Shown here: one piece after another, positions 1 to 44,266 of the stretch
Numbering within the stretch: position 1 is the stretch's first letter
Layout of the letters: every line of letters starts with the position of its first letter
From: Anadara kagoshimensis
Taxonomy: Eukaryota; Mollusca; Bivalvia; Arcoida; Arcidae
Length of the DNA stretch: 64,000 nucleotides
Direction: 5' to 3'
Assembly: GCA_021292105.1 (NCBI GenBank)
Contig: CM037868.1
Span: 27,920,139 to 27,984,138, forward strand
The notes under the pieces: model-generated
The model's input: only the letters and a program-made list of their open reading frames with translations
The model's database searches: none
Told to the model about the DNA's origin: nothing
Translations under genes and position numbers: made by a program

Positions 1-3000
1 TTGATAGACATATTTACAAGTGTCATATAGCTGACTAAACCTAGAGTGTTGGATATATTTACGGGTGACATACAGCTGACACAACCTAGATTGATGGATA
101 TATGTACAAGTGACATATAGCTGACACAACCTAGAGTGTTGGATATATTTACGGGTGACATATAGCTGACACAACCCAGATTGATGGACATATTTACAAG
201 TGACATATAGCTGACACAACTGATATTGGTGGACATATTAACGAGTGACATATAGCTGACACAACGTAGATTAGTGGACATATTAACGAGTGACATTTAG
301 CTGACACAACCTAGATTATTAGACATATTTACAAGTGTCATATAGCTGACTAAACCTAGATTGATAGACATATTTACAAGTGACATACAGCTGACACAAC
401 CTAGATTTATAAACATATTTACAAGTGACATATAGCTGACACATGGTAGATTGATTGATATATTTACAAGTGACGTTTAGCTGACGCAACCTAAATTAAA
501 AGACATACTTGCAAATGACATATAGCTGACACATCCTAGATTGATAGACATATTTACAAGTAACATGGACCTGATACATCCTAGATTGATAGACATATTT
601 ACGAATAACACATAGCTGACACAACCGATATTGGTGAAAATATTAACGAGTGACACAATTCACATTGATAGATATATTTACAAGTGATAAATAGCTGACA
701 CAACCTAGATTAAAAGACATATTTACAAGTGACATATAGCTGAAACAACTGATATCAATGGATATATAAACAAGTGATATATTGCTAACACATCTTAGAT
801 TTATGAATATATGTACCAGAGATGCATAGCTGACACATCCTAGATTGATGAACATATTTACAAGTGACATATAGGTGACACAACTTAGATTGATGGATAT
901 ATGTACAAGTGACTTATAGGTGACAAAATCTAGATCGATGGACATATTTACGAATAACACATAGCTGACACAACCGATCTCAATTAATATTAATTAACGA
1001 GTGACATACAGCTGACAGAACATAGATTGATGGATATATTTACAAGTGACATACAGCTGACACATCTCAGATTGGTGGACACATTTACGAGTGTCATATA
1101 GCTGACACAATTTAGATTGATGGATATATATACGAGTGACATATAGCTAACAAAACCTAGATTGATGGACATATTTACGAATAACACTTAGCTGACACAA
1201 CCGATTTTTGTGGACATATTAACGAGTGACATATAGCTGACACAACTTAGATAAGTGGACATATTTACATGTGACATATAGCTGACACAACTTAGATTGA
1301 TGGATATATGTACAAGTGACTTATAGGTGACAAAACCTAGATCGATGGACATATTTACGAGTAACACATAGCTGACACAACCGATACCAATGGATATATT
1401 AACGAGTGACATATAGCTGACACAACCTAGATTGATGGACATATTTACGAATAACACATAGCTGACACAACCGATTTTGGTGGAAATATTAACGAGTGAC
1501 ATATAGCTGACACAACTTAGATTAGTGGACATATTAACGAGTGATATATAGCTGACACAACCTAGATTGATATACATATTAACAAGTAACATATAGCTGA
1601 CACAACCTAGAATGACATACAGCTGTCACAACCTAGATTGATAGACAAATTTACAAGTGACATATAGCTGACACAACCTAGATTGATGGACATATTTACA
1701 AGTGACATATAGCTGACACAACCTAGATACATGGATACATTTACAAGTCACATATAGCTGACACAACCTAGATTAAAAGACATATTTACAAGTGACATAT
1801 AGCTGGCACAATCGATATCGATGGAAATATTTACAAGTGACATATACCTGACACATCCTAGACTGATAAACATATTTAAACAGACATATAACTGACACAA
1901 TTTAGATTAATAGACATATTTATAAGTGACATATAGCTGACACAATTTAGATTGATAGACATATTTACAAGTGACATATAGCTGACACTACTGATATCGA
2001 TGGATATATAAACAAGTGATATATTGCTAACACATCCTAGATTTATGAATATATGTACCAGAGATGTATAGCTGACACAACTTAGATTGATGGATATATG
2101 TATGAGTGACGTATAGCTAACACAACTAAGATTGATAGACATATTTACAAGTGACATTTAGCTGACACAACTTAGTTTGATGGATATTTGTACAAGTGAC
2201 ATATAGCTGACACATCCTAAATTGATGGACATATTTACATGTGACATATAGCTGACATCACTTAGATTGATTGATATATGTACAAGTGACTTATAGGCGA
2301 CAAAAACTAGATCGATGGACATATTTACGAGTAACTTATAGCTGACACAACCGATATCAATGGATATATTAACGAGTGACATACAGCTGACACAACCTAC
2401 ATTGATGGACATATTTACAAGTGACATATAGCTGACACATCTCAGATTGGTGGACACATTTACAAGTGATATATAGCTGACACAATTTAGATTGATGGAT
2501 ATATATACAAGTGACATATAGCTAACAAAACCTAGATTGATGGACATATATACGAATAACATATAGCTGACACAACCGATATTGGTGGACATATTAACTA
2601 GTGATATATAGCTGACACAACCTAGAGTGTTGGATATATTTACGGGTGACATATAGCTGACACATGGTAGATTGGTAGACTTATTTACAAGTGACATATA
2701 ACTGACACAACCTAGATTGATATACATATTAACAAGTAACATATAGCTGACACAACCTAGATTGATGGACATATTTACAAGTGACATATAACTGACACAA
2801 CCTAGATTGATATACATATTAACAAGTAACATATAGCTGACACAACCTAGATTGATGGACATATTTACAAGTGACATATAGCTGACACAACCTAGATTCA
2901 TGGATATATTTACAAGTCTCACATAGCTGACACAACCTAGATTGATAGACATATTTACAAGTGACATACAGCTGACACAACCTAGATTGATAGACATTTT

Positions 3001-6000
3001 TACAAGTGACATATAGCTGAAACATGGTAGATTGATTGATATATTTAAAACTGACGTATAGCTGACACAACCTAAATTTAAAGACATATTTACAAGTAAC
3101 ATATAGCTGACACAATCTAGATTAAAAAACATATTTACAAGTGACATATAGCTGACACATCCAAGATTGATGGACATACTTACAAATGACATATAGATGA
3201 CACATCCTAGATTGATCGACATATTTACAAGTGACATGGACCTGACACAACCTAGATTGATAGACATATGTACAGGTAACATAAAACTGACACAATTTAC
3301 ATTGATAGACATATTTACAAGTGACATATAACTGACACAATCTAGATTGATATACATATTTACAAGTGATATATAGCTAACACAACCTAGATTGATTGAC
3401 ACATGTACAATTGACATATAGCTGACACAACTGATATCGATTGATATATAAACGAGTGATATATTGCTGACACATCCTAGATTTATAAATATATGTACCA
3501 GTGATGTAGCTGACATATCCTATATTGATGGACATATTTACAAGTGATATATAGCTGACACAACTTAGATTGATAGACATATTTACAAGTGACATATAAC
3601 TGACACAATCTAGATTGATATACATATTTACAAGTGATATATAGCTAACACAACCTAGATTGATTGACACATGTACAATTGACATATAGCTGACACAACT
3701 GATATCGATTGATATATAAACGAGTGATATATTGCTGACACATCCTAGATTTATAAATATATGTACAAGTGATGTATAGCTAACACAACTTAGATTGATG
3801 GACATATTTACAAGTGATATATAGCTGACACAACTTAGATTGATGGACATATTTACAAGTGACATTTAGCTGACACAACTTAGATTGATGGATATATGTA
3901 CAAGTGATATATAGCTGACACATCCTAGATTGATGGACATATTTCCAAGTGACATATAGCTGACACAACCTAGATACATGGATACATTTACAAGTGACAT
4001 ATAGCTGACACAACATAGATTGATAGACATATTTACAGGTAACATAAAACTGACACAATTTACATTGATAGACATATTTACAACTGACATATAACTGACA
4101 TAATCTAGATTGATAGACATATTTATAAGTGACATATAACTGACACAATCTAGATTGATAGAAATATTTACAGGTAACATATAACTGACACAATTTACAT
4201 TGATAGACATATTTACAAGTGACATATAACTGACATAATCTAGATTGATAGACATATTTATAAGTGACATATAACTGACACAATCTAGATTGATATACAT
4301 ATTTACAAGTGATATATAGCTGACACAACCTAGATTGATTGACATATGTACAATTGACATATAGCTGACACAACTGATATCGATTGATATATAAACGAGT
4401 GATATATTGATGACACATCCTAGCTTTATGAATATATGTACAAGTGATGTATAGCTGACATATCCTATATTGATGGACATATTTACAAGTAATATATAGC
4501 TGACACAACTTAGATTGATAGACATATTTACAAGTGACATTTAGCTGACACAACTTAGATTGATGGATATATGTACAAGTGACATATAGCTGACACATCC
4601 TAGATTGATGGACATATTTACACGTTACATATAGCTGACACAACTTAGATTGATGGATATATTTACAAGTGACATATTGCTTACACAACCTTGATTAAAA
4701 AACATATTTACAAGTGACATATAGCTGACACAACCGATATCGATGGATATATTAACGAATGACATATAGCTGACACAACTGATTTCGATGGATATATTAA
4801 CGAGTGACATACAGCTGACACAACCTAGAATGATAGACATATTTACAAGTGACATATAGCTGACACAACCTAGATTGATGGACATATTTACAAGTGACAT
4901 ATAGCTGACACAACCCAGATTGATGTATATATTTACAAGTGACATATAGCTGACACAACCTAGATTAAAAGACATATTTACAAGTGACATATAGCTGACA
5001 AAACCGATATCGATGGATATATTAACAAATGACATATAGCTGACACATCCTAGATTGATAGACATATTTACAAGTGACATTTACCTGACACATCCTAGAT
5101 TGATAGACATATTTACAAGTTACATATAACTGACACAATCTAGATTAATATACATATTTATAAGTGACATATAGCTGACACATCCTAGATTGATATACAT
5201 ATTTACAAGTGATATATAGGTAACAGAACCTAGATTGATGGTCATATTTACAAGTGACATATAGCTGATACATCTCAGATTGGTGGACACATTTACGAGT
5301 GTCATTTAGCTGACACAACTTGGATTGATGGATATATATACGAGTGACATATAGCTAACAAACCTAGATTGATGGACATATTTACGAATAACACATAGCT
5401 GACACCACCGATATTGGTGGATATATTAACGAGTGACATATAGCTGACACAACTTAGATTAGTGGACATATTAACGAGTGATATATATATAGCTGACACA
5501 ACCTAGAGTGTTGGATATATTTACGGGTGACATATAGCTGAATCATGTTACATTAGTGGACATATTTACAAGTGACATATAACTGACACAACCTAGATTC
5601 ATGGATATATTTACAAGTGACATATAGCTGACACAACCTAGATTGATAGACATATTTACAAGTGACATACAGCTGACACAACCTAGATTGATAGACATAT
5701 TTACAAGTGACATATAGCTGTCACAACCTAGATTAAAAGACATATTTACAAGTGACATATAGTTGACACATGGTAGATTGATGGATATATTTACAAGTGA
5801 CATATAGCTGACACAACCTAGATTGATAGACATATTTACAAGTGACATATAGCTGTCACAACCTAGATTAAAATACATATTTACAAGTGACATATAGCTG
5901 ACACATGGTAGATTGATGGATATATTTACAAGTGACGTATAGCTGACACAACCTAGATTTAAAGTCATATTTACAAGTGACATATAGCTGACACAACCTA

Positions 6001-6265
6001 GATTAAAAGACATATTTACAAGTGACATATTGCTGACACATCCAAGATTGATGGACATACTTGCAAATGACAAAAAGCTGACACAATCTAGATTGATAGA
6101 CATATTTACAAGTGTCATACAGCTGACACAACCTAGACTAATAGAATATTTACAAGTGACATATAGCTGACACAACCTAAATTGATGGATTTATGTACAA
6201 GTGACATATAGCTGACACAACCTAGATTGATAGACATATTTGCGAGCGACATATATCTGACACAT
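1..6265. repeat. 45-bp minisatellite array (about 139 copies)
   Basis: Contiguous imperfect tandem repeat with a 45-bp period, built around 'acatatttacaagtgacat' followed by 'agctgacacaacctaga'. It is already in progress at the window edge. Several monomer variants alternate: one with ttgatggacatattta, one with gatatcgatggatata, one with attaaaagacat and one with tttatgaatatatgta. Because 45 is a multiple of three and many monomers lack stops, long minus-strand frames read a 15-residue repeat (MSLVNMSINLGCVSY-like). Composition follows the monomer and nothing suggests translation. The array decays between about 6200 and 6300, about 130 bp before the acceptor of a channel exon, so it probably lies in an intron of that gene. 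That last point is inference, because the upstream exons are outside the window. Confidence 0.95.
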
Positions 6266-6399
6266 CCCAGATTGAGGAATATATTATCCTGTAATCCATT
6301 TATCCGACACACCATAGATTGGCATATAGCTAATACATGCCAGTTTATTGACATAAGTATGAGTGACATAAAGTTGACACAACCTATTCTTTTGTTCAG

Positions 6400-9205
6400 G
6401 ATTTGTCGATTAATGTTTCATCAGAACTGACAAATGAAGAGTTAATACTAAAGGAAGATGATCAAGATTTGTCCAGACTCAATGTGTCATGTCTTGTTGA
6501 TGAACAGGAGTGGCATCTCAGCGATCTTGTAGAAGCTGAAGAAAGAATGCTCAAGAAAGAATTCAGTGAAGCCAAAAATATAGCTTATCCTGGTATACTT
6601 GTCAAATGTGTTGCTACCAGAAGGCCTGGCTTCTTTGTATGGAATATTCTAATCATCATGGTTAGTAAAACTAAAATCATCATAAAAATACATCAACCAT
6701 ATAATACTTTTAACTCTCTGTGACTATTTTTTCACGAAGCATTGCGCATTTAGAAATCAGTCTCAGCTCCTTCCGAAGAGACCTTAAAAACCAACGCCCC
6801 GTTTCAGGACAGGCGTGGCACGTTAAGGAACCCTCCCTGCCTAAGCCTTCTACAAAGGTAAAAAATTTCTGCATTTCACCTATAGTTGGTGACATCTCAA
6901 TATAAGTGTAATATTCATGACTGGGGCGTAAAGCATCAATCAATCAATCTTTTGTTGTAAAGGGATGTTGCTTATATTGGAGATTTCGAATTAAGATGGA
7001 GAAGACTTTAAGGGTGGTTTAAGGGGTAATATCAGAAGTACAACACTTGAAGTTTTATTTCAATGGGTATTTTGATTCATTAAACAAGTTGTTAAAATGT
7101 TCAGCTATTTAAATCAATGTGATCTTAATGAAGGTCAAGATACATATATCAATATGTATTAAACAATCACGTATGAAATGCATCATTTTTTCTTCTGTGA
7201 TCCTCCTCCATTGTGAGTACCGTCTCTGTTTTGTGATTCCGTTTCCCTTTTATGGAAATTATCTAATATAATTATGTATTCAGTGGTGTAGCGTGTATAT
7301 AAGCCAATAATCTGTGCTTCTACATACACTGTATTTTATATTTAAAAACAATAATCCAACATGTCATTAGCCATGTCATTTACAATATACAAACATCTTC
7401 TTATATTGATAACTGTGGACAAAATTCCAACAAGAAAAAAAATCACTAGATTTTGCTTCTCTCTTCAAATTTTCAGGGGAGCATGCTCCCATACCCTCCT
7501 GGCATGAACGCACTGGCAACAGGCTTGCACACTATTTTTTGCTGGCTACACCACTGGTATTGTTGATATAGGGGTTAAGACTTGAAGTGACTTTTTGTTT
7601 ATTTTTATCATGTTTTTGTTGTTACAGACGATCATTAGTTCTCTGTCTTTTTGTTCGTTTGTTGTGGATAGAGACTTACCTCAAAGAAGATTACAGCTGG
7701 GATTTACACTCACTCTTACAGGGGTAGCATTTAGATTTGTAACCAACCAAAGTCTTCCTAAAATCTCTTACCTCACAAAACTGGTATGTGTTAAACCAAT
7801 AAACTTTCTAGAGATGTCATTTATAGTGTTATAACTTCTGTTATCATGCACAAAGCATAACGCTCCATTTAGCATATCATGATTAGTTTCCTCTGAATAA
7901 CTTAAATTACCAACTTGTATAACAATCGTAACGCTTTCTTCATGATATGTCGCTGTGGCCATATAAGACCAAATGCGCTTTTTCTGACAATTTCACATTT
8001 TTTCGATATGGCGCAAATCAGATTTCAAAAGAGATATACTATTTGAACGTCGACAATGGTTTTTCTTGTCCGTGAAAACATTGGTAAAATTATGAAATTA
8101 TCATTAATTGTTTTATTTCGAATTTGGTGTGTGTAATAATTCATTTAATTCTGTACATATACATCTTTGTTTTTATACACATAAACTGTCTGATTTCAAA
8201 ATTTCATTTTTGACAGTTTAGCGAAATATAAGCGTTACGATTATTTTGCAATGACTGATAAATATTCTTGAAAATACATGAAGTCCTGTTTATAGTCTGT
8301 TTTAACTTAGAAGTGTATGTAGTGATTGATTGAATGCAATTAAAACTAAGATTAAATGTTACAGACTATAAAACTCCTCACGCCTTGTGTGTTAACTGGC
8401 AGCCATTCCTGTAGACAATGTTATTGTTCTATAGTTCCTGCTGTCAGCGTTTGCGAATGCATACATATAGCAATGCTGGTAAATACTTTTGGGTATCTTG
8501 ATAAATAATGTCAATGTTGAACTTCCTTGAGCAAGGACAAAGGAAAAGGTTTGATTTTTTAAATTTTGAAAAAATATTAAAATACAATATAAACATTTGA
8601 ATAAAAAATGACATCCTATCCTTACTTAGTTATACTTTTAACCTAAATGTAATTAATTTTCTGAAACTTGCTTTAAAATGGAGTTATTGGATCTGCAGAT
8701 TTTAGGCCAGTATTTTGTTTTTATAAATTATCTCCCCTTAAAAATTCTCAATCTCCTTGCAGTTAGTTGTTGTTACCTTTGATATTTATTTAGAGTTTCT
8801 AACCGGAACATAGCTTTTTTAGCCCGCATTCTTGTTATTTTTAACTCGCCTGAGTCAAAGGCTGTAGAGAGTTTCTCTGATCAAAGTTTACCATTTATAA
8901 TTCATATTCTGTTGTAAGTGTTGGTCTGGTCTGAAATAGTTTGAGCCTTCTGTATAGCAGTTATATATTCTTATTTAACTTATCAGTCATCTTGAACCTG
9001 ACTTATTTATTTATTTATTTTACAGGATAAGTACATCCTTTTCAGTATGATATTTAACTATTTGGTCAGTATATGGCATGCAATCATCACGTTTTTTGAG
9101 TATGACCTCAGCCTTCAGAGATGGTTAGATATCGGCGCCTTTATATTTTTTCTGGCACTCTACATCCTGTTTCAGATTATTTTTGTGTTGATAGTGGTAA
9201 TAAAG
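6400..9205 (+). CDS. Pentameric ligand-gated ion channel, 3' part (three exons), ELIC-like pore
   Basis: Partial gene for a subunit of a plasma-membrane pentameric ligand-gated ion channel. Three exons, all phase 0: 6400-6660 (acceptor ttgttcag, donor gttagt), 7628-7783 (acceptor ttgttacag, donor gtatgt) and 9026-9205 (acceptor ttttacag, donor gtgagt). Together they give 199 residues. Residues 1-75 are the end of the extracellular domain (EWHLSDLV, then ILVKCVATRRPGFFVWN, the strand leading into M1). M1 is about 76-98 (WNILIIM/TIISSLSFCSF) and crosses the first splice junction. M2 is about 104-125 (RRLQLGFTLTLTGVAF), followed by the M2-M3 loop SLPKISYLTKLDKY. M3 is about 140-160 and M4 about 177-199 (FIFFLALYILFQIIFVLIVV). 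The M3-M4 loop is very short, as in prokaryotic channels. By eye M2 matches bacterial ELIC better than nicotinic or GABA/glycine receptors. The ligand-binding exons lie upstream of the window. The terminal exon was not identified; an acceptor at 10040 followed by CCGATAAACAGATAA would give a PINR-stop ending, but this is weak. Confidence 0.82.
6765..6950 (+). mobile_element. SINE 3' fragment in channel intron
   Basis: The stretch carries ggcgtggcacgttaagg, then 'ttggtgacatctcaatataag', 'atgactggggcgtaaagc' and a short tail of ATCA repeats. The same ordered blocks occur at about 12960-13110, 27950-28106 and 32554-32710. This is the conserved 3' part of a molluscan-type tRNA-derived SINE. The tRNA-like head is absent or unrecognisable here, so the copy is 5'-truncated. 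It lies between the first and second visible channel exons. The left boundary is approximate. Confidence 0.6.
7281..7556. mobile_element. Non-autonomous hAT-like MITE, 276 bp
   Basis: Perfect 12-bp terminal inverted repeats CAGTGGTGTAGC (7281-7292) and GCTACACCACTG (7545-7556) bound an element with no coding capacity. The 5-bp direct repeat GTATT lies immediately outside each end (7276-7280 and 7557-7561). The CAGTGG...GTAGC terminus is of the hAT type, although hAT target duplications are normally 8 bp. The interior includes a 14-bp palindrome GGGAGCATGCTCCC (7477-7490). It sits in the intron between channel exons 1 and 2. Confidence 0.7.
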
Positions 9206-16261: not shown

Positions 16262-17385
16262 TATTTTAAGTTGTAGTTCATTTCGTTCCTGTGCCGCTGT
16301 ATTTATTTTATAATTTGTGGCTGTAGTTCATTTTGCTCCTGTGTCGCTGTATTTATTTTATAATTTGTGGCTGTAGTTCATTTGGCTCCTGTGTCGCTGT
16401 ATTTATTTTATAATTTGAGACTGTAGTTCATTTTGCTCCTGTGTCGCTGTATTTATTTTATAATTTGTGGCTGTAGTTAATTTTGCTCCTGTGTCGCTGT
16501 ATTTATTTTATAATTTGTGGCTGTAGTTAATTTTGCTCCTGTGTCGCTGTATTTATTTTATAATTTGTGGCTGTAGTTAATTTTGCTCCTGTGTCGCTGT
16601 ATTTATTTTATAATTTGTGGCTGTAGTATATTTGGCTCCTGTGTCGCTGTATTTATTTTATAATTTGAGGCTGTAGTTCATTTCGTTCCTGTGTCGCTGT
16701 ATTTATTTTATAATTTGAGGCTGTAGTTCATTTCGTTATTGTGTCGCTGTATTTATTTTACAATTTGAGGCTGTAGTTCATTTCGCTCCTGTGTCGCTGT
16801 ATTTATTTTATAATTTGTGGCTGTAGTTCATTTCGCTCCTGTGTCGCTGTGTTTATTTTATAATTTGTGGCTTTAGTTCATTCCGTTCCTGTGTCGCTGT
16901 ATTTAATTTATAATTTGTGGCTGTAGTTCATTTCGCTCCTTTGTCGCTGTGTTTATTTTATAATCTGAGGCTATAGTTCATTTCGTTCCTGTGTCGCTGT
17001 ATTTATTTTATAATTTGAGGCTGTAGTTCATTTCGTTATTGTGTCGCTGTATTTATTTTATAATTTTAGGCTGTAGTTCATTTCGTTCCTGTGTCGCTGT
17101 ATTTATTTTATAATTTTAGGCTGTAGTTCATTTCGCTCCTGTGTCGCTGTGTTTATTTTATAATTTGTGGCTGTAGTTCATTTCGCTCCTGTGTCGCTGT
17201 ATTTATTTTATAATTTGTAGCTGTAGTTCATTTCGCTCCTGTGTCGCTGTATTTAGTTTATAATTTGTGGCTGTAGTTCATTTCGTTCCTGTGTCGCTGT
17301 ATTTATTTTATAATTTGTGGCTGTAGTTCATTTCGCTCCTGTGTCGCTGTATTTATTTTTACTTATAATTTGTGGCTGTAGTTAG
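16262..17385. repeat. 50-bp satellite array, left block (about 22 copies)
   Basis: Very regular 50-bp period: gtagttcatttcgctcctgt, gtcgctgtatttattttata, then atttgtggct. Monomers differ mainly by single substitutions (tcgctcc/tcgttcc; gtggct/gaggct). It contains no open frame of note because the period is not a multiple of three. Confidence 0.97.
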
Positions 17386-17769
17386 TTTAAACAGTATTTA
17401 TTTGATAAATTTAAATACAATAGATATAACATTATAAATGATTAATTAATAGGATTCTGGAACTAGAGAATATCTCTAATATTAACCAGTCTCCTTAAAC
17501 AACTTAAACGTCTAATAAAGGTGTATAATTAATTACATAATAATAGTAGTAGTAAAAATATGGTAATAATATAATAATAATATAATAATAATGATAATAA
17601 TAGGAAATTGTGGTAGAATAATAATAATTACAATAATAATAAAAAATTGTGAATAATAATTATAATAAAATTGTGAATAATAATAATAATAATAATAATA
17701 AATATCGGTGGAATGATTATGATTATAATATTACTAATAGTATAAAAAAATTAAATTGTTATATAATAA

Positions 17770-17819
<50 letters not shown>

Positions 17820-18049
17820 AAATACAAAGTGTGTACATGTGCAAAAAATAGATGCATGGGTGTATTCATATATCATTGAAAAATTCATAAAAATGAAATT
17901 AATTAAATACATTTGGTGTGTAACAAGTAATTAATATGATAATAATATGATTGACAATGGTAATAATAATAAAGCCATGATGTGTTGAATATTCATAATA
18001 CAATACTTTTTACTGTTCTTCATTAGCTCAAAACATGCAGCCTGTACTA

Positions 18050-18082
<33 letters not shown>

Positions 18083-18189
18083 TGATTGACAATGGTAATA
18101 ATAATAAAGCCATGATATATTAAATATCCATAATACAAGCTACATACTTCGAACCAATGAGAAACAGTAAATAGTGTTAAGTAAAACGT
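17386..18189. other. AT-rich block interrupting the 50-bp array
   Basis: About 800 bp of DNA unrelated to the flanking monomers. It is rich in AAT/ATA trinucleotide runs, including a long run at about 17768-17817. It contains an internal direct duplication of about 60 bp (aataatatgattgacaatgg, near 17941 and 18079). Array monomers end on its left and resume on its right, so it is either an insertion into the array or a segment captured between two array expansions. No gene seen. Confidence 0.75.
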
Positions 18190-20314
18190 TTATTATTTGT
18201 GGCTGTAGTTCATTTCGTTCCTGTGTCGCTGTATTTATTTTATAATTTGTGGCTGTAGTTCATTTCGTTCCTGTGTCGCTGTGTTTATTTTATAATTTGT
18301 GGCTTTAGTTCATTTCGCTCCTGTGTCGCTGTATTTATTTTATAATTTGTGGCTGTAGTTCATTTCGTTCCTGTGTCGCTGTATTTATTTTATAATTTGA
18401 GGCTGTAGTTCATTTTGCTCCTGTGTCGTTGTATTTATTTTATAATTTTTGGCTGTAGTTCATTTTGCTCCTGTGTCGCTGTATTTATTTTATTATTTGT
18501 GGCTGTAGTTCATTTCGCTCCTGTGTCGCTGTATTTATTTTATAATTTGTGGCTGTAGTTCATTTCGCTCCTGTGTCGCTGTATATATTTTATAATTTGA
18601 GGCTGTAGTTCATTTCGCTCCTGTGTCGCTGTATTTATTTTATAATTTGAGGCTGTAGTTCATTTCATTCCTGTGTCGCTGTATATATTTTATAATTTGA
18701 GGCTGTAGTTCATTTCGCTCCTGTGTCGCTGTATTTATTTAATAATTTGAGGCTGTAGTTCATTTCGTTCCTGTGTCGCTGTATATATTTTATAATTTGA
18801 GGCTGTAGTTCATTTCGCTCCTGTGTCGCTGTATTTATTTTATAATTTGTGGCTGTAGTTCATTTCGCTCCTGTGTCGCTGTATTTATTTTATAATTTGT
18901 GGTTGTAGTTCATTTCGCTCCTGTGTCGCTGTATTTATTTTATAATTTGTGGCTGTAGTTCATTTCGCTCCTGTGTCGCTGTATTTATTTTATAATTTGT
19001 GGCTGTAGTTCATTTCGCTCCTGTGTCGCTGTATTTATTTTATAATTTGTAGCTGTAGTTCATTTCGTTCCTGTGTCGCTGTATTTATTTTATAATTTGT
19101 GTTTGTAGTTCATTTCGTTCCTGTGTCGCTGTATTTATTTTATAATTTGTGTTTGTAGTTCATTTCGTTCCTGTGTCGCTGTATTTATTTTATAATTTGT
19201 GGCTGTAGTTCATTTCGCTCCTGTGTCGCTGTATTTATTTTATAATTTGTGGTTGTAGTTCATTTCGTTCCTGTGTCGCTGTATTTATTTTATAATTTGT
19301 AGCTGTAGTTCATTTCGCTCCTGTTGCAGTGTTTATTTTATAATTTGTAGCTGTAGTTCATTTCGCTCCTGTGTCGCTGTATTTATTTTATAATTTGTGG
19401 TTGTAGTTCATTTCGTTCCTGTGTCGCTGTATTTATTTTAAATTTGTGTTTGTAGTTCATTTCGTTCCTGTGTCGCTGTATTTATTTTATAATTTGTGGC
19501 TGTAGTTCATTTCGCTCCTGTGTCGCTGTATTTATTTTATAATTTGTGGTTGTAGTTCATTTCGTTCCTGTGTCGCTGTATTTATTTTAAAATTTGTGTT
19601 TGTAGTTCATTTCGTTCCTGTGTCGCTGTATTTATTTTATAATTTGTGGCTGTAGTTCATTTCGCACCTGTGTCGCTGTATTTATTTAATAATTTGTGGC
19701 TGTAGTTCATTTCGCTCTCCTGTGTCGCTGTAGTTATTTTATAATTTGTGTTTGTAGTTCATTTCGTTCCTGTGTCGCTGTATTTATTTTATAATTTGTG
19801 GCTGTAGTTCATTTCGCTCCTGTGTCGCTGTATTTATTTTATAATTTGTGGCTGTAGTTCATTTTGCTCCTGTGTCGCTGTATTTATTTTATAATTTGTG
19901 GTTGTAGTTCATTTCGTTCCTGTGTCGCTGTATTTATTTTATAATTTGTAGCTGTAGTTCATTTCGCTCCTGTGTTGCTGTATTTATTTTATAATTTGAG
20001 TTGTAGTTCATTTCGTTCCTGTGTCGCTGTATTTATTTTATAATTTGTAGCTGTAGTTCATTTCGTTCCTGTGTCGCTGTATTTATTTATAATTTGTGGC
20101 TGTAGTTCATTTCGCTCCTGTGTCGCTGTATTTATTTTATAATTTGAGGTTGTAGTTCATTTCGTTCCTGTGTCGCTGTATTTATTTTATAATTTGAGGC
20201 TGTAGTTCATTTCGTTCCTGTGTCGCTGTATTTATTTTATAATTTGTAGCTGTAGTTCATTTCGCTCCTGTGTGCAGTGTTTATTTTATAATTTGTGGCT
20301 GTAGTTCATTTTGC
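18190..20314. repeat. 50-bp satellite array, right block (about 42 copies)
   Basis: Same monomer and phase pattern as the block at 16262-17385. A few shortened monomers occur (near 19324, 19436, 19996, 20083 and 20272). It ends abruptly at ttgctgcagc. Confidence 0.97.
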
Positions 20315-20502
20315 TGCAGCTTTTTTTGTAATTTGTTTGGACCCTATTTGAATCTATATCTATTTATTTTCGGAAAAATATATATATATATCAATTACCT
20401 TGTAGAATTTTCATTCCCCCCTTATTGTTGCGTTTTGTCGCCTTGCTCTGGTTCATCGATTCATAATTCTTTAAACCTTCTAAATCTTTTCGCTGTTTTG
20501 GT

Positions 20503-32757: not shown

Positions 32758-35700
32758 GACATAGAATTATTATATAAAATGACTACATCAAACATAGAAT
32801 TATTATATAAAATGACTACATCAAACATAGAATTATTATATAAAATGACTACATCAAACATAGAATTATTATATAAATGACTACATCAAACATAGAATCA
32901 TTATATAAAATGATACATCAAACATAGAATTATTATATAAATGACTACATCAAACATAGAATTATATATAAAATGACTACATCAAACATAGAATTATTAT
33001 ATAAAATGACTACATCAAACATAGAATTATTAATAAAATGACTACATCAAACATAGAATTATTATATAATGACTACATCAAACATAGAATTATTATATAA
33101 AATGACTACATCAAACATAGAATTATTATATATAATGACTACATCAAACATAGAATTATTATATAAAATGACTACATCAAACATAGAATTATTATATAAA
33201 ATGACTACATCAAACATAGAATCATTATATAAAATGACTACATCAAACATAGAATTATTATATAAAATGACTACATCAAACATAGAATTATTATATAAAA
33301 TGACTACATCAAACATAGAATTATTATATAAATGACTACATCAAACATAGAATCATTATATAAAATGACTACATCAAACATAGAATTATTATATAAAATG
33401 ACTACATCAAACATAGAATCATTATATAAAATGACTACATCAAACATAGAATCATTATATATAATGACTACATAAGACATAGAATTATTATATAAAACGT
33501 CTACATCAAACATAGAATTATTATATAAAATGACTACATCAAACATAGAATTATTATATAAAATGACTACATCAAACATAGAATCATTATATAAATGATA
33601 CATCAAACATAGAATCATTATATAAAATGACTACATCAAACATAGAATCATTATATAAAATGATACATCAAACATAGAATTATTATATAAATGACTACAT
33701 CAAACATAGAATTTATTAAAATGACTACATCAAACATAGAATTATTATATAAAATGACTACATCAAACATAGAATTATTACATAAAATGACTACATCAAA
33801 CATAGAATCATTATATAAAATGACTACATCAAACATAGAATTATTACATAAAATGACTACATCAAACATAGAATTATTATAATAATGACTACATCAAACA
33901 TAGAATTATTACATAAAATGACTACATCAAACATAGAATTATTATATAAAATGATACATCAAACATAGAATTATTATAATGACTACATCAAACATAGAAT
34001 TATTATATAAATGACTACATCAAACATAGAATTATTAATAAAATGACTACATCAAACATAGAATTATTATATATAATGACTACATCAAACATAGAATTAT
34101 TATAAAATGACTACATCAAACATAGAATCATTATATAAAATGATTACATCAAACATAGAATTATTATATAAAATCTACATCAAACATAGAATTATTATAA
34201 AATGACTACATCAAACATAGAATTATTACATAAAATGACTACATCAAACATAGAATTATTATATAAAATGACTACATCAAACATAGAATTATTATATATA
34301 ATGACTACATCAACATAGAATCATTATATAAAATGACTACATCAAACATAGAATTATTATATAAAATGACTACATCAAACATAGAATTATTATATAAAAT
34401 GACTACATCAAACATAGAATCATTATATAAAATGACTACATCAAACATAGAATCATTATATAAAATGACTACATCAACATAGAATTATTATATAAATGAC
34501 TACATCAAACATAGAATTATTATATAAAATGACTACATCAAACATAGAATTATTATATAAAATGACTACATCAAACATAGAATTATTATATAAAATGACT
34601 ACATCAAACATAGAATTATTATATAAAATGACTACATCAAACATAGAATTATATAAAATGACTACATCAAACATAGAATTATTATATAAAATGACTACAT
34701 CAAACATAGAATTATTATATAATGACTACATCAAACATAGAATCATTATATAAAATGACTACATCAAACATAGAATCATTATATAAAATGACTACATCAA
34801 ACATAGAATTATATATAAAACTCTACATCAAACATAGAATTTTATATAAAATGACTACATCAAACATAGAATTATTATATAAATGACTACATCAAACATA
34901 GAATTATTATATTAATGACTACATCAAACATAGAATTATTATATAAAATGACTACATCAAACATAGAATTATTATATAAAATGATTACATCAAACATAGA
35001 ATTATTATATAAAACGTACATCAAACATAGAATTATTATATAAATGACTACATCAAACATAGAATTATTACATAAAATGACTACATCAAACATCTAATTA
35101 TTATATAAAATGACTACATCAAACATAGAATTATTATATAAATGACTACATCAAACATAGAATCATTATATAAAATGATTACATCAAACATAGAATTATT
35201 ATAAAATGATACATCAATCATAGAATTATTATATAAATGACTACATCAAACATAGAATCATTATATAAAATGATTACATCAAACATAGAATTATTATATA
35301 AAATGACTACATCAAACATAGAATTATTATATATAATGACTACATCATACATAGAATTATTATATAAAATGATACATCAAACATAGAATTATTATATAAA
35401 ATGACTACATCAAACATAGAATTATTATATAAAATGACTACATCAAACATAGAATTATTATATAAATGACTACATCAAACATAGAATCATTATATAAAAT
35501 GACTACATCAAACATAGAATTATTATATAAAATGACTGCATCAAACATAGAATTATTATATAAAATGACTACATCAAACATAGAATTATTATATAAAATG
35601 ACTACATCAAACATAGAATTATTATACAAATGATACATCAAACATAGAATTATTACATAAAATGACTACATCAAACATAGAATTATTATATAAATGATAC

Positions 35701-38700
35701 ATCAAACATAGAATTATTATATAAATGACTACATCAAACATAGAATTATTATATAAAATGACTACATCAAACATAGAATTATTATATAAAATGACTACAT
35801 CAAACATAGAATTATTATATATAAATGACTATATCAAACATAGAATCATTATATAAATGACTACATCAGACATAGAATTATTATATAAAATCTACATCAA
35901 ACATAGAATTATTATATAAAATGACTACATCAAACATAGAATATTATATAAATGACTACATCAAACATAGAATCATTATATAAATGATTACATCAAACAT
36001 AGAATCATTATATAAAATGACTACATCAAACATAGAATTATTATATAAAATGTACATCAAACATAGAATTATTATATAAAATCACTACATCAAACATAGA
36101 ATCATTATATAAAATGACTACATCAAACATAGAATTATTACATAAAATGACTACACCAAACATAGAATTATTATATAAAATGACTACATCAAACATAGAA
36201 TTATTACATAAAATGACTACATCAAACATAGAATCATTATATAAAATGACTACATCAAACATAGCATTATTACATAAAATGACTACATCAAACATAGAAT
36301 CATTATATAAATGACTACATCAAACATAGAATTATTACATAAAATGACTACATCAAACATAGAATCATTATATAAATGACTACATCAAACATAGAATTAT
36401 TACATAAAATGACTACATCAAACATAGAATCATTATATAAAATGACTACATCAAACATAGAATTATATAATAAAATGACTACATCAAACATAGAATTATT
36501 ATATAAAACTACATCAAACATAGAATTATTATAATGACTACATCAAACATAGAATTATTACATAAAATGATACATCAAACATAGAATTATTATATAAAAT
36601 GACTACATCAAACATAGAATTATTACATAAATGACTACATCAAACATAGACATCAAGAATTATTATATAAAATGACTACATCAAACATAGAATTATTACA
36701 TAAAATGACTACATCAAACATAGAATTATTATATAAAATGACTACATCAAACATAGAATTATTACATAAAATGACTACATCAAACATAGAATTATTATAT
36801 AAAATGACTACATCAAACATAGAATTATTATATAAAATGACTACATCAAACATAGAATTTATATAAAATGACTACATCAAACATAGAATTATTATATAAA
36901 TGACTACATCAAACATAGAATTATTATATAAAATGACTACATCAAACATAGAATTATTATATAAAATGATTACATCAAACATAGAATTATATATAAAATG
37001 ATACATCAAACATAGAATTATTATATAAAATCTACATCAAACATAGAATTATTATATAAAATGATTACATCAACATAGAATTATTATATATAATGACTAC
37101 ATCAAACATAGAATTATTATATAAAATGACTACATCAAACATAGAATTATTATATAAAATGACTACATCAAACATAGAATTATTATATAAAATGACTACA
37201 TCAAACATAGAATTATTATATAAAATGATTACATCAAAATAGAATTATTATATAAAATCACTACATCATCATAGAATTATTATATAAAATGACTACATCA
37301 AACATAGAATATTATATAAAATGACTACATCAAACATAGAATTATTACATAAAATGACTACATCAAACATAGAATTATTATATAAAATGACTACATCAAC
37401 ATAGAATTATTATATAAAATGACTACATCAAACATAGAATTATTATATAAAATGACTACATCAACATAGAATATTATATAAAATGACTACATCAAACATA
37501 GAATTATTATATAAAATGATACATCAAACATAGAATTATTATATAAAATGATACATCAAACATAGAATCATTATATAAAATGACTACATCAAACATAGAA
37601 TTATTATATAAAATGATACATCAAACATAGAATCATTATATAAAATGACTACATCAAACATAGAATCATTTATAAAATGACTACATCAAACATAGAATTT
37701 ATATATAATGACTACATCAAACATAGAATTATATATAAAACCTCTACATCAAACATAGAATTATTATATAAAATGATTACATCAAACATAGAATTATTAT
37801 ATAAAATGACTACATCAAACATAGAAATTATATAAATGATTACATCAAACATAGAATCATTATATAAAATGACTACATCAAACATAGAATCATTATATAA
37901 AATGATTACATCAAACATAGAATTATATATAAAATCTACATCAAACATAGAATCATTATATAAAATGATTACATCAAACATAGAATCATTACATAAAATG
38001 ACACATCAAACATAGAATTATTATATAAAATGACTACATCAAACATAGAATTATTACATAAAATGATACATCAAACATAGAATCATTATATAAAATGACT
38101 ACATCAAACATAGAATTATTATATAAAATGATTACATCAAACATAGAATTATTATATAAAACTACATCAAACATAGAATTATTATATAAAATGATACATC
38201 AAACATAGAATTATTATATAAAATGACTACATCAAACATAGAATTATTATATATAAATGACTACATCAACATAGAATTATTATATAAAATGACTACATCA
38301 AACATAGAATTATTCTATAAAATGACTACATCAAACATAGAATTATTATATAAAATGACTACATCAAACATAGAATTATTATATAAAATGACTACATCAA
38401 ACATAGAAATTATTATAAAATGACTACATCAAACATAGAATCATTATATAAAATGATACATCAAACATAGAATTATTATATAAAATGACTAATCAAACAT
38501 AGAATTATTAATAAAATGACTACATCAAACATAGAATTATTATATAAAATGACTACATCAAACATAGAATTATTATATAAAATGACTACATCAAACATAG
38601 AATTATTATATATAATGACTACATCAACATAGAATTATTATATAAAATGACTACATCAAACATAGAATTATTATATAAAATGACTACATCAAACATAGAA

Positions 38701-41612
38701 TTATTATAAAATGACTACATCAAACATAGAATTATTATATAATGACTACATCAAACATAGAATTATTACATAAAATGACTACATCAAACATAGAATCATT
38801 ATATAAAATGACTACATCAAACATAGAATTATTACATAAAATGACTACATCAAACATAGAATCATTATATAAAATGACTACATCAAACATAGAATTATTA
38901 CATAAAATGACTACATCAAACATAGAATATTAAAAAAAAAACATAGTTTTTAAACATAGAATTATTATATAAAATGACTACATCAAACATAGAATTATTA
39001 CATAAAATGACTACATCAAACATAGAGTCATTATATATAAATGACTACATCAAACATAGAATTATTACATAAAATGACTACATCAAACATAGAATTATTA
39101 TATATAATGACTACATCAAACATAGAATTATTACATAAAATGACTACATCAAACATAGAATCATTATATAAAATGACTACATCAAACATAGAATTATTAC
39201 ATAAAATGACTACATCAAACATAGAATCATTATATAAAATGACTACATCAAACATAGAATTATTACATAAAATGACTACATCAAACATAGAATTATTATA
39301 TATAATGACTACATCAACATAGAATTATTACATAAAATGACTGCATCAAACATAGAATTATTATATAAAATGATTACATCAAATATAGAATTACTATATA
39401 AAGTGACTACATCAAACATAGAGTTATTATATAAAACGTACATCAAACATAGAATTATTATGTATAATGACTACATCAAACATAGAATTATTACATAAAT
39501 GACTACATCAAACATAGAATTATTACATAAAATGACTACATCAAACATAGAATCATTATATAAAATGACTACATCAAACATAGAATTATTACATAAAATG
39601 ACTACATCAAACATAGAATTATATATATAATGACTACATCAAACATAGAATTATTACATAAAATGACTACATCAAACATAGAATTATTATATAAAATGAC
39701 TACATCAAACATAGAATTATTATATAAAATTATTACATCAAACATAGAATTACTATATAAAATGACTACATCAAACATAGAATTATTATATAAATGACTA
39801 CATCAAACATAGAATTATTATATAAATGACTACATCAAACATAGAATTATTATATAAAATGATTACATCAAACATAGATATTACTATATAAAATGACTAC
39901 ATCAAACATAGAATTATTATATAAAACGTCTACATCAACATAGAATTATTATATAAAATTTTACATCATACATAGAATTATTATATAAAATGACTACATC
40001 AAACATAGAATTATTACATAAAATGACTACATCAAACATAGAATTATTACATAAAATGACTACATCAAACATAGAATTATTACATAAAATGACTACATCA
40101 AACATAAAATATTATATAAAATGACTACATCAAACATAGAATTATTATATAAAACGTCTACATCAAACATAGAATTATTATATAAAATGATTACATCAAA
40201 CACAGAATCATTACATAAAATGACAACATCAAACATAGAATTATTATATAAAATGATACATCAAACATAGAATTATTATATAAAATGATACATCAAACAT
40301 AGAATCATTACATAAAATGACTACATCAAACATAGAATTATTATATAAAATGATACATCAAACATAGAATCATTACATAAAATGACTACATCAAACATAG
40401 AATCATTATATATAATGACTACATCAAACATAGAATTATTACATAAAATGATACATCAAACATAGAATTATTATATAAAATGACTACATCAAACATAGAA
40501 TTATTACATAAAATGATACATCAAACATAGAATCATTATATAAAATGACTACATCAAACATAGAATTATTATATAAAATGATTAAAATGATTACATCAAA
40601 CATAGAATCATTACATAAAATGATACATCAAACATAGAATTATTATATAAAATGACTACATCAAACATAGAATCATTACATAAAATGATTACATCAAACA
40701 TAGAATTTACATAAAACGTCTACATCAAACATAGAATTATTATATAAAATGATTACATCAAACATAGAATATTACATAAAATGACTACATCAAACATAGA
40801 ATTTATATTAAAATGACTACATCAAACATAGAATTATATATAAAATGATACATCAAACATAGAATTATTATATAAAATGACTACATCAAACATAGAATTA
40901 TTATATAAAATGACTACATCAAACATAGAATTATTATATAAAACTACATCAAACATAGAATTATTATAAAATGACTACATCAAACATAGAATTATTATAT
41001 AAATGACTACATCAAACATAGAATTATTATATAAAATGACTACATCAACATAGAATTATTATATAAAATGACTACATCAAACATAGAATTATTAAAAATG
41101 ACTACATCAAACATAGAATTATTATATAAAATGACTACATCAAACATATAATTATTATATAAAATGACTACATCAACATAGAATTATATAAAATCACTAC
41201 ATCAAACATAGAATTATTATATAAAACGTCTACATCAAACATAGAATTATTATATAAAATGATTACATCAAACATAGAATTATTACATAAAATGACTACA
41301 TCAAACATAGAATTATATAAAATGACTACATCAAACATAGAATTATTATATAAAATGACTACATCATAACATAGAATTATTATATAAAATGACTACATCA
41401 AACATACAATTATTATAAATGACTACATCAAACATAGAATTATTATATAAAATTATTACATCAAACGTAGAATTATTGTATAAAATGACTACATCAACAT
41501 AGAATCATTAAATAAATGGATTACATCAAACGTAGAATTATTGTATAAAATGACTACATCAGACATAGAATCATTATATAAAATGACTACATCAAACATA
41601 GAATTATTATAC
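32758..41612. repeat. 33-bp satellite, main block (8.9 kb, about 270 copies)
   Basis: Same monomer as the block at 28155. Beyond about 33560 many units are shortened by 1-6 bp (for example aaatgatacatcaaac lacking 'ct', attatataaatgac lacking two A). This breaks the open frames into short stretches. Common point variants are gaatcatt, ttacataaa and aaaacgtctac. One A homopolymer interruption occurs at 38931-38943. Each full monomer contains a TATATAAAA box. The array ends at attatacacataatttt. Confidence 0.97.
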
Positions 41613-41650: not shown

Positions 41651-44266
41651 TGAGATGACCAAAGATGTAAACAATGTCAACACAGAATGGAGATGACCAA
41701 AGATGTATACAATGTCAACACAGAATGGAGATGACCAAGGATGTAAACAATGTCAACACAGAATGGAGATGATCAAAGATGTAAACAATGTCAACACAGT
41801 ATGGAGATGACCTAAGATGTAAACAATGTCAACACAGTATGGGGATGATCAAAGATGTAAATAATGTCAACACAGTATGGAGATGACCAAAGATGTAAAC
41901 AATATCAACACAGTATGGAGATGACCAAAGATGTAAATAATGTCAACACAGTATGGAGATGACCAAAGATGTAAACAATGTCAACACAGTATGGAGATGA
42001 CCAAAGATGTAAACAATGTCAACACAGTATGGAGATGACCAGAGATGTAAACAATGTCAACACAGTATGGAGATGACCAAAGATGTAAACAATGTCAACA
42101 CAGTATGGAGATGACCAAAGATGTAAACAATGTCAACACAGTATGGAGATGACCAAAGATGTAAACAATATCAACACAGTATGGAGATGACCAAAGATGT
42201 AAATAATGTCAACACAGTATGGAGATGACCAAAGATGTAAACAATGTCAACACAGTATGGAGATGACCAAAGATGTAAACAATGTCAACACAGTATGGAG
42301 ATGACCAGAGATGTAAACAATGTCAACACAGTATGGAGATGACCAAAGATGTAAACAATGTCAACACAGTATGGAGATGACCAAAGATGTAAACAATGTC
42401 AACACAGTATGGAGATGACCAAAGATGTAAACATTGTCAACACAGTATGGAGATGATCAAAGATGTAAACAATGTCAACACAGTATGGAGATGACCAGAG
42501 ATGTAAACAATGTCAACACAGTATGGAGATGACCAAAGATGTAAACAATGTCAACACAGTATGGAGATGACCAAAGATGTAAACAATGTCAACACAGTAT
42601 GGAGATGACCAAAGATGTAAACATTGTCAACACAGTATGGAGATGGTCAAAGATGTAAACAATGTCAACACAGTATGGAGATGGCCAAAGATGTAAACAA
42701 TGTCAACACTGTATGGAGATGGCCAAAGATGTTATCAATGTCAACATAGAATAGAGATGACCAAAGATGTAAACAATGTCAACACAGTATGGAGATGGCC
42801 AAAGATGTAAACATTGTCAACACAGTATGGAGATGACCAAAGATGTAAACATTGTCAACACTGTATGGAGATGGCCAAAGATGTAAACAATGTCAACACA
42901 GTATGGAGATGGCAAAAGATGTAAACATTGTCAACACAGTATGGAGATGGCCAAAGATGTAAACAATGTCAACACTGTATGGAGATGGCCAAAGATGTTA
43001 TCAATGTCAACATAGAATAGAGATGACCAAAGATGTAAACAATGTCAACACAGTATGGAGATGGCCAAAGATGTAAACAATGTCAACAGAGTATGGAGAT
43101 AGCCAAAGATGTAAACAATGTCAACACTGTATGGAGATGGCCAAAGATGTTATCAATGTCAACATAGAATAGAGATGACCAAAGATGTAAACAATGTCAA
43201 CACAGTATGGAGATGGCCAAAGATGTAAACATTGTCAACACAGTATGGAGATGACCAAAGATGTAAACATTGTCAACACTGTATGGAGATGGCCAAAGAT
43301 GTAAACAATGTCAACACAGTATGGAGATGGCAAAAGATGTAAACATTGTCAACACAGTATGGAGATGACCAAAGATGTAAACATTGTCAACACAGTATGG
43401 AGATGACCAAAGATGTAAACAATGTCAACACAATATGGAGATGGCCAAAGATGTAAACATTGTCAACACAATATGGAGATGGCCAAAGATGTAAACAATG
43501 TCAACACAGTATGGAGATGACCAAAGATGTAAACAATGTCAACACAGTATGGAGATGACCAAAGATGTAAACAATGTCAACACAGTATGGAGATGACCAA
43601 AGATGTAAACATTGTCAACACAGTATGGAGATTACCAGAGATGTTATCAATGTCAACATAGAATAGAGATGACCAAAGATGTAAACAATGTCAACACAAT
43701 ATGGAGATGGCCAAAGATGTAAACAATGTCAACACAATATGGAGATGGCCAAAGATGTAAACAATGTCAACACAGTATGGAGATGACCAAAGATGTAAAC
43801 AATGTCAACACAGTATGGAGATGACCAAAGATGTAAACAATGTCAACACAGTATGGAGATGACCAAAGATGTAAACAATGTCAACACAGTATGGAGATGA
43901 CCAAAGATGTAAACAATGTCAACACAGTATGGAGATGACCAAAGATGTAAACAATGTCAACACAGTATGGAGATGACCAAAGATGTAAACAATATCAACA
44001 CAGTATGGAGATGACCAAAGATGTAAACAATATCAACACAGTATGGAGATGACCAAAGATGTAAACAATATCAACACAGTATGGAGATGACCAAAGATGT
44101 AAACAATGTCAACACAGTATGGAGATGACCAAAGATGTAAACAATGTCAACACAGTATGGAGATGACCAAAGATGTAAACATTGTCAACACAGTATGGAG
44201 ATGGCCAAAGATGTAAACAATGTCAACACAGAATGGAGATGACCAAAGATGTAAACAATGCCAACA
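41651..44266. repeat. 38-bp satellite array (about 69 copies) with higher-order duplications
   Basis: Period exactly 38 bp: aacacagtatggagatgacc followed by aaagatgtaaacaatgtc. Variant monomers mark copied blocks. The unit with gatgttatcaatg starts at 42731, 42997, 43149 and 43643, separated by 266, 152 and 494 bp (7, 4 and 13 monomers). The accagagatg variant recurs at 42035, 42301 and 42491. Each monomer carries the forkhead-like core TGTAAACA (or a close variant). Confidence 0.97.

Follow-up and report, generated by a model that had tools for sequence, protein, structure and literature searches.

In Cys-loop receptors, the two cysteines stand seven residues before and seven residues after the aromatic residue of the FPxD motif. 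Receptors that keep this Pro loop without the cysteines were described in 2016 (Jaiteh, Taly and Henin; PMC4795631), with animal members mostly in Lophotrochozoa; in the parts of that paper drawn on here, Cys-less channels are listed in bivalves and gastropods, animal and protist sequences fall in one clade, retention is already weighed against transfer, and non-synaptic expression is predicted. Corresponding excerpts on the schistosome Cys-less LGICs (Johnson et al., 2023; PMC9874803) report Glu at M2 position -2' in all members, state that an acidic residue at -1' or -2' is often present in other Cys-less channels without being obligatory, and cite planarian homologs with expression in mechanosensory neurons and a knock-down phenotype. 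In the oyster, 8 of 141 ligand-binding domains lack the Cys-loop, and intronless nicotinic receptors are reported for molluscs in the same source (PMC6896357, in part); an annelid receptor treated in PMC10338036 (also in part) is nicotinic-like. Among the papers listed from one open-access library, no title or abstract opening dealt with the function of mollusc Cys-less receptors. For the class as a whole, little is known about ligands, selectivity or origin.

We analyzed a stretch of 64,000 nucleotides from Anadara kagoshimensis (the window; C12:27920139-27984138 of a 1.115-Gb assembly of 36 contigs), which is part of a eukaryotic chromosome and not a contaminant. It holds the 3' part of an intact-looking channel gene, the window gene, that has the F/YPxD loop without cysteines, the pre-M1 Arg and the M2-M3 Pro of the receptors surveyed in PMC4795631 and is likewise an animal gene, a likeness drawn by motifs; the M1 kink proline, by contrast, is absent in six genes here. 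With the schistosome channels it shares the Cys-less state and the kept FPxD, but it has Gln at -2' and Arg at -1' instead of Glu at -2' (PMC9874803). ELIC (Dickeya) and other prokaryotic pLGICs resemble the window gene in their Pro loop without cysteines, their short M3-M4 link and their domain order, and M2 starts with RLQ..FTL.LT in both ELIC and the window gene; unlike them, the window gene has shared phase-0 introns and lacks the M1 kink proline that is found in 7/7 bacterial sequences. The nicotinic-like and anion-type receptors of the same genome have the same pre-M1 R, M2 Leu 9' and M2-M3 P, and FPFD where the exon was read, but they carry GEK or PA/GR before M2 and an M1 proline, none of which is present in the window gene. 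We conclude that the window gene is real and that its kind is not new, as Cys-less channels are known from molluscs, worms and protists. Very probably, it encodes a subunit of a Cys-less pentameric channel and belongs to a small animal family of this already described kind.

Exons of the window gene and its Pro loop

The sequence-only reading of the window had proposed three phase-0 exons that encode M1-M4 of a pentameric channel with a short M3-M4 link, and all of this was recovered (Table 1). Each exon is in phase 0, with AG before and GT after it (GATTTG to ATCATG, ACGATC to AAACTG, and GATAAG to ATAAAG being the exon ends in order), and the peptides quoted earlier are present. The first exon, also found by a whole-genome self match, carries the beta-9 Trp and the pre-M1 Arg and is followed by the donor GTTAGT, a less usual form; SLPKISYLTKLDKY crosses the junction of the second and third exons (SLPKISYLTKL, then DKY). 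The spliced product of 199 aa, pre-M1 to M4 included, matches Pfam Neur_chan_memb (PF02932) with 38.5 bits against a cut-off of 28.1, and this match covers the second exon. In the alignment, four helices M1-M4 are recognized together with the pre-M1 Arg and the M2-M3 Pro. The link between M3 and M4 comprises about a dozen residues (helix ends by eye), and since both helices lie within one 60-aa exon, the window gene has no intracellular domain. A further exon carrying the stop must come after it; that last exon was not identified. Three further profiles stay under their cut-offs for the window gene: PF02931 reaches only 22.1 of 26 bits because the first exon of the gene is missing, and the window gene's 80.7 of 280.2 bits for NCBIfam LIC and 74.6 of 500 bits for LGIC_1 are far below the cut-offs, while 6/6 family members match both. 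In the family alignment (A1, 6 members), PF02932 was matched in 6/6 and PF02931 in 5/6, with E up to 0.1.

Comparison of open frames with paralogous loci located the Pro-loop exon beyond the window, at C12:27903685-27903885, 22.7 kb upstream of the exon at 6400. It reads ...TENLELEDFPFDNQ and joins in frame to DLSINV. This was the place to look for a canonical Cys-loop, which had been set beforehand as the feature that would count against the earlier reading. We found that FPFD is kept, in agreement with the [FY]PxD motif, that Glu and Leu occupy the two Cys positions, and that the window gene has no cysteine pair 13 residues apart. Both positions are non-Cys in all five genes with an aligned Pro-loop exon, the window gene included; in C14a only the second position is aligned and is Leu, so that the second position is replaced in 6/6. 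Among the comparison rows, both cysteines are present in 6/6 nicotinic-like rows of the same genome, whereas the window gene has neither; neither position is Cys in 7/7 bacterial rows, and the anion-type rows do not reach the loop. A different cysteine, four residues before the pre-M1 Arg (VKC.ATRR in the window gene), is invariant across the six Cys-less genes aligned.

The remainder of the window is rich in repeats. The SINE that had been noted in an intron is borne out by copies on many chromosomes: from 5416 first-look candidates at least 40 copies were listed, including the one in the window. Minisatellites fill much of the window (1-6282, 16272-20315, 32759-41611, 41652-44266, 53639-55206, 59591-61099 and others, with units of 45, 50, 33, 38, 27 and 45 bp), and strand skew and a very high AT content mark the stretch at 32759-41611 with the 33-bp array. 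Two adjoining frames resemble a LINE by eye and gave no Pfam match; the 169-aa frame, judging by its sub-threshold profile matches, resembles part of a tyrosine recombinase from a mobile element. Rfam gave nothing at gathering level over the window.

Table 1. Features within the window (positions counted from its first letter) and loci of the gene family (positions in the assembly)
Feature	Position	Strand	Remarks
Minisatellite, 45-bp (135-bp higher order)	1..6282	.	Tandem Repeats Finder; 3' part of the ~22.7-kb intron after the Pro-loop exon
Exon: end of extracellular domain (after Pro loop), pre-M1, first half of M1	6400..6660	+	87 aa, phase 0 at both ends
Intron, mid-M1	6661..7627	+	position and phase identical in 5/5 paralogs read
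SINE-like interspersed repeat, ~220 bp, in mid-M1 intron	6735..6955	+	copies with 74-81% identity genome-wide
Exon: second half of M1, M2 pore helix, M2-M3 loop	7628..7783	+	52 aa, phase 0
Intron, end of M2-M3 loop	7784..9025	+	donor conserved in 5/5 paralogs read, acceptor in 3/3 checked
Exon: M3, very short link, M4	9026..9205	+	60 aa, phase 0
Two adjoining open frames, 167 + 125 aa	10249-11125	-	by eye like the C-terminal part of a LINE retroelement
Open frame, 169 aa	15143-15652	-	DUF3504 (E 0.0016) and phage integrase (E 0.044), both below cut-off
Family loci on C12	27.9 (window gene), 33.89 Mb		
Family loci on C14	26.1, 28.4 Mb		
Family loci on C15	50.56, 50.59, 51.60, 51.64 Mb		
Family loci on C1	1.60, 2.05 Mb		

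A small family with shared exon borders

Two genome searches yielded a family of 10 loci (Table 1). The two C15 pairs have 96-99% identity in coding DNA, and the translations of the C14 twins and of the C1 twins are nearly the same; given these near-identical pairs, the distinct genes number about six. Some of the pairs may represent haplotypes that were not collapsed in the assembly, and not real duplicates, since other channel genes of this genome also occur in equal-scoring pairs. The genes read have exon borders in common. With the window gene counted, the border after the Pro loop has its donor in 5/5 genes and the next acceptor in 6/6, the mid-M1 intron is common to all six genes read, and the M2-M3 loop donor is found in 6/6 and the next acceptor in the four genes checked. 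Compared with three paralogs over 261-265 codons without stops, the window gene has a pS of 0.71-0.85 (saturated) and a pN of 0.26-0.45 (Nei-Gojobori counts from our own script), and is under protein-level constraint. Because the borders of the exons at 6400 and 7628 are common to five paralogs and, against three of them, saturated synonymous change is combined with limited amino-acid change, a chance origin of the exons is excluded. The earlier view of a divergent intron-bearing animal gene that is not bacterial contamination holds.

The beta1-beta2 exon, the first of the extracellular domain, is the missing part at the 5' end. The proposal to retrieve upstream sequence succeeded for the Pro-loop exon and failed for this one: it was not seen in C12:27880139-27936138, and a search of the whole assembly found no beta1-beta2 exon placed so as to belong to the window gene. 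Consequently, the locus could be truncated, that is, a non-functional copy that has lost its 5' part while its membrane exons are still intact, a reading in line with the less usual GTTAGT donor and with the intron of about 22.7 kb, minisatellite-rich at the window end, that parts the Pro-loop exon from the rest. We regard such a truncation as very unlikely, given that 266 codons run without stop or frameshift, that the protein is constrained relative to three paralogs, and that a run of 1000 N stands at a possible place of the missing exon. Between the end of this run (C12:27899986-27900985) and the Pro-loop exon lie 2.7 kb; the beta1-beta2 exon was located at the nine other family loci, about 0.5-14 kb upstream in the paralogs, and the run is therefore its likely place.

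Several paralogs have peculiarities of their own. In the C1 paralog at 2.05 Mb, the M1-M2 exon is tandemly duplicated (L026, 8312-8464 and 8571-8723), with splice sites intact and a one-residue difference (VAF/VTF); the locus at 1.60 Mb (L027) likewise has two copies of this exon, and these duplicates are possibly mutually exclusive exons. The C12:33.89-Mb paralog carries many minisatellite-like repeats of its M4-exon tail (L013, 1-1751; C12:33889823-33891658), with incomplete Pro-loop exon copies upstream. The M2-M3 region of the C14:26.1-Mb copy (L025, 410-736) is out of frame relative to its C14:28.4-Mb twin, which makes it either a broken copy or an assembly error. Beyond the family, a genome search with PF02932 gave at least 151 matches, many of them in open frames of at least 400 aa, like the intronless nicotinic receptors reported for molluscs, with 150 of 421 candidates scored. 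Equal-scoring pairs of channel-gene matches, separated by about 0.3-2 Mb within one chromosome, were observed on C8, C11, C12, C15 and C17, which suggests segmental duplication or uncollapsed haplotypes.

Tree placement and relation to bacterial channels

To place the family, we used trees of 27 rows: six Cys-less, six nicotinic-like and eight anion-type rows, the latter two from the same genome and the anion-type rows spanning only pre-M1 to M3, and seven bacterial rows. The C1 row is a composite of the C1a exons and the M3-M4 exon of its twin C1b. Excluded were L050 (the same gene as L049), L056 (match over two frames), L032, L033 and L036 (resembling nicotinic rows used), L045-L048 (no open frame through the motif filter) and the near-copies C15b, C14b and C1b. 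The Cys-less rows form a group of their own with support of 93/91, just below the starred level, and of 92/86, also below that level, when only membrane-domain columns are used. Both the nicotinic-like group (100/100) and the anion-type group (100/99) are starred, separate and without Cys-less rows; thus, as had been anticipated, the window gene does not lie inside either group of its own genome. Deeper branches are weak. Gene structure was dropped as a divider of the family from the Cys-loop genes, as the comparison exons had been preselected for long uninterrupted matches.

The earlier description of the membrane domain as specifically bacterial, or ELIC-like, was not supported. The window gene's identity to ELIC in this domain is 24/88 (27%), which falls inside the anion-type range of 20-25/90 (22-28%), and that to the nicotinic-like rows is 20-25 of 88 or 89. 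Among solved structures, its single sequence found a GABA-A gamma-2 chain first (1e-10), with ELIC entries from 8.4e-10, and the family profile placed GABA-A beta-3 (1.6e-29) ahead of ELIC (1.5e-25). Some measures do lean toward bacteria: outside the family, identity is highest for the bacterial row L052 (27/90, 30%), and the two highest BLOSUM62 sums there, 117 for L052 and 105 for ELIC, are both bacterial, against 98 for the best animal row. "ELIC-like" is thus apt for the absent cysteines and the short link; these comparisons do not establish that the domain is especially close to bacterial channels.

The same measures bear on whether an ELIC/GLIC-like channel was transferred from bacteria into an animal ancestor and gained its introns later. 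Such a transfer would fit the missing Cys-loop cysteines, which none of the seven bacterial rows has either, the short M3-M4 link of prokaryotic channels, the leading scores of L052 and ELIC, and a one-clade test of the Cys-less rows with ELIC that is not rejected (p-AU 0.46). We nevertheless consider it improbable: ELIC is no closer than the anion-type range, the other five bacterial rows share only 10-22 of 88 or 90 residues (11-24%), the best tree keeps all animal rows on one side, though with support of only 37/25, and a published tree, as far as the excerpt goes, joins such animal sequences to protist ones (PMC4795631). Moreover, three intron positions are common across the diverged family, so that any transfer would be old. 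One-clade tests with L052 (p-AU 0.191) and with the nicotinic-like rows (p-AU 0.489), and a placement of the Cys-less rows on the bacterial side of the animal Cys-loop rows (p-AU 0.302), were not rejected. The suggestion of a divergent lineage that was retained or transferred stands as to the divergent lineage, with transfer neither shown nor excluded by the values for ELIC and the nicotinic-like rows. When genome contigs of bacteria and archaea were scanned with the family alignment, 52 pattern matches came up and none was confirmed; a second scan with ELIC as query gave one Dickeya locus, and PF02931 found bacterial channels in 7/398 genomes of the Dickeya phylum, the Dickeya genome among the seven.

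The family could also consist of animal Cys-loop receptors that became Cys-less secondarily, as in some nematodes, through a recent loss of the cysteines. The best tree, which groups the Cys-less rows with the anion-type rows (64/74), and the unrejected grouping with the nicotinic-like rows would agree with this. What makes a recent loss highly unlikely in our view is that both Cys positions are replaced in all five genes aligned there (and the second in all six), that a PAR or GEK signature is absent, that the M1 proline is absent in 6/6 genes, and that the M3-M4 domain is absent in the five with the exon read. In addition, joining the window gene alone to the anion-type rows was rejected (p-AU 0.0038), in a test whose constraint also splits the Cys-less group. 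Vertical inheritance of the Cys-less lineage within animals is most likely.

Pore residues and proposed working of the channel

The M1 kink proline is used in gating by most relatives. In the six Cys-less rows its position holds Ile (five) or Val (one), whereas it is Pro in 21/21 comparison rows. A published survey gives 77% Pro over the superfamily at this position (PMC4795631, in part), which means that sequences without it exist. A second feature concerns the residues before M2. The window gene has Gln at -2', Arg at -1' and Arg at 0', with no acidic residue at -1' or -2'; residues -2' to 0' are QNR in C12b and C15a1, DFR in C15a2, ADR in C1a and ENR in C14a, so that an acidic residue at -1' or -2' occurs in three of six family genes (C1a, C14a and C15a2). 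With Gln at -2', Arg at -1' and no acidic residue, this subunit would be unlikely to form a standard cation channel by itself. Going by these residues, it may pass anions or act as a selectivity-modifying partner of its acidic paralogs.

By homology to the superfamily, five subunits would assemble as a pentamer, and a small extracellular ligand would presumably bind between them. As elsewhere in the superfamily, the FPFD loop and the pre-M1 Arg would link the binding event to the M2 pore. A channel with no M3-M4 domain would be expected to lack the usual synaptic anchoring, and it may act in sensory or other non-synaptic signalling. More speculatively, the lophotrochozoan Cys-less branch might have lost the M1 kink proline while the inner pore mouth of one subunit turned from acidic or neutral to doubly basic, a scenario that we put forward as doubtful.

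The window gene leaves the known distribution of the Cys-less class unchanged. With it comes a family of about six animal Cys-less genes that bear introns, are placed on chromosomes and share exon borders; the lack of the M1 proline and the differing charges ahead of M2 are specific features open to test. If the doubtful scenario were true, one small Cys-less family could give both cation- and anion-passing channels, independently of the nicotinic/GABA split.
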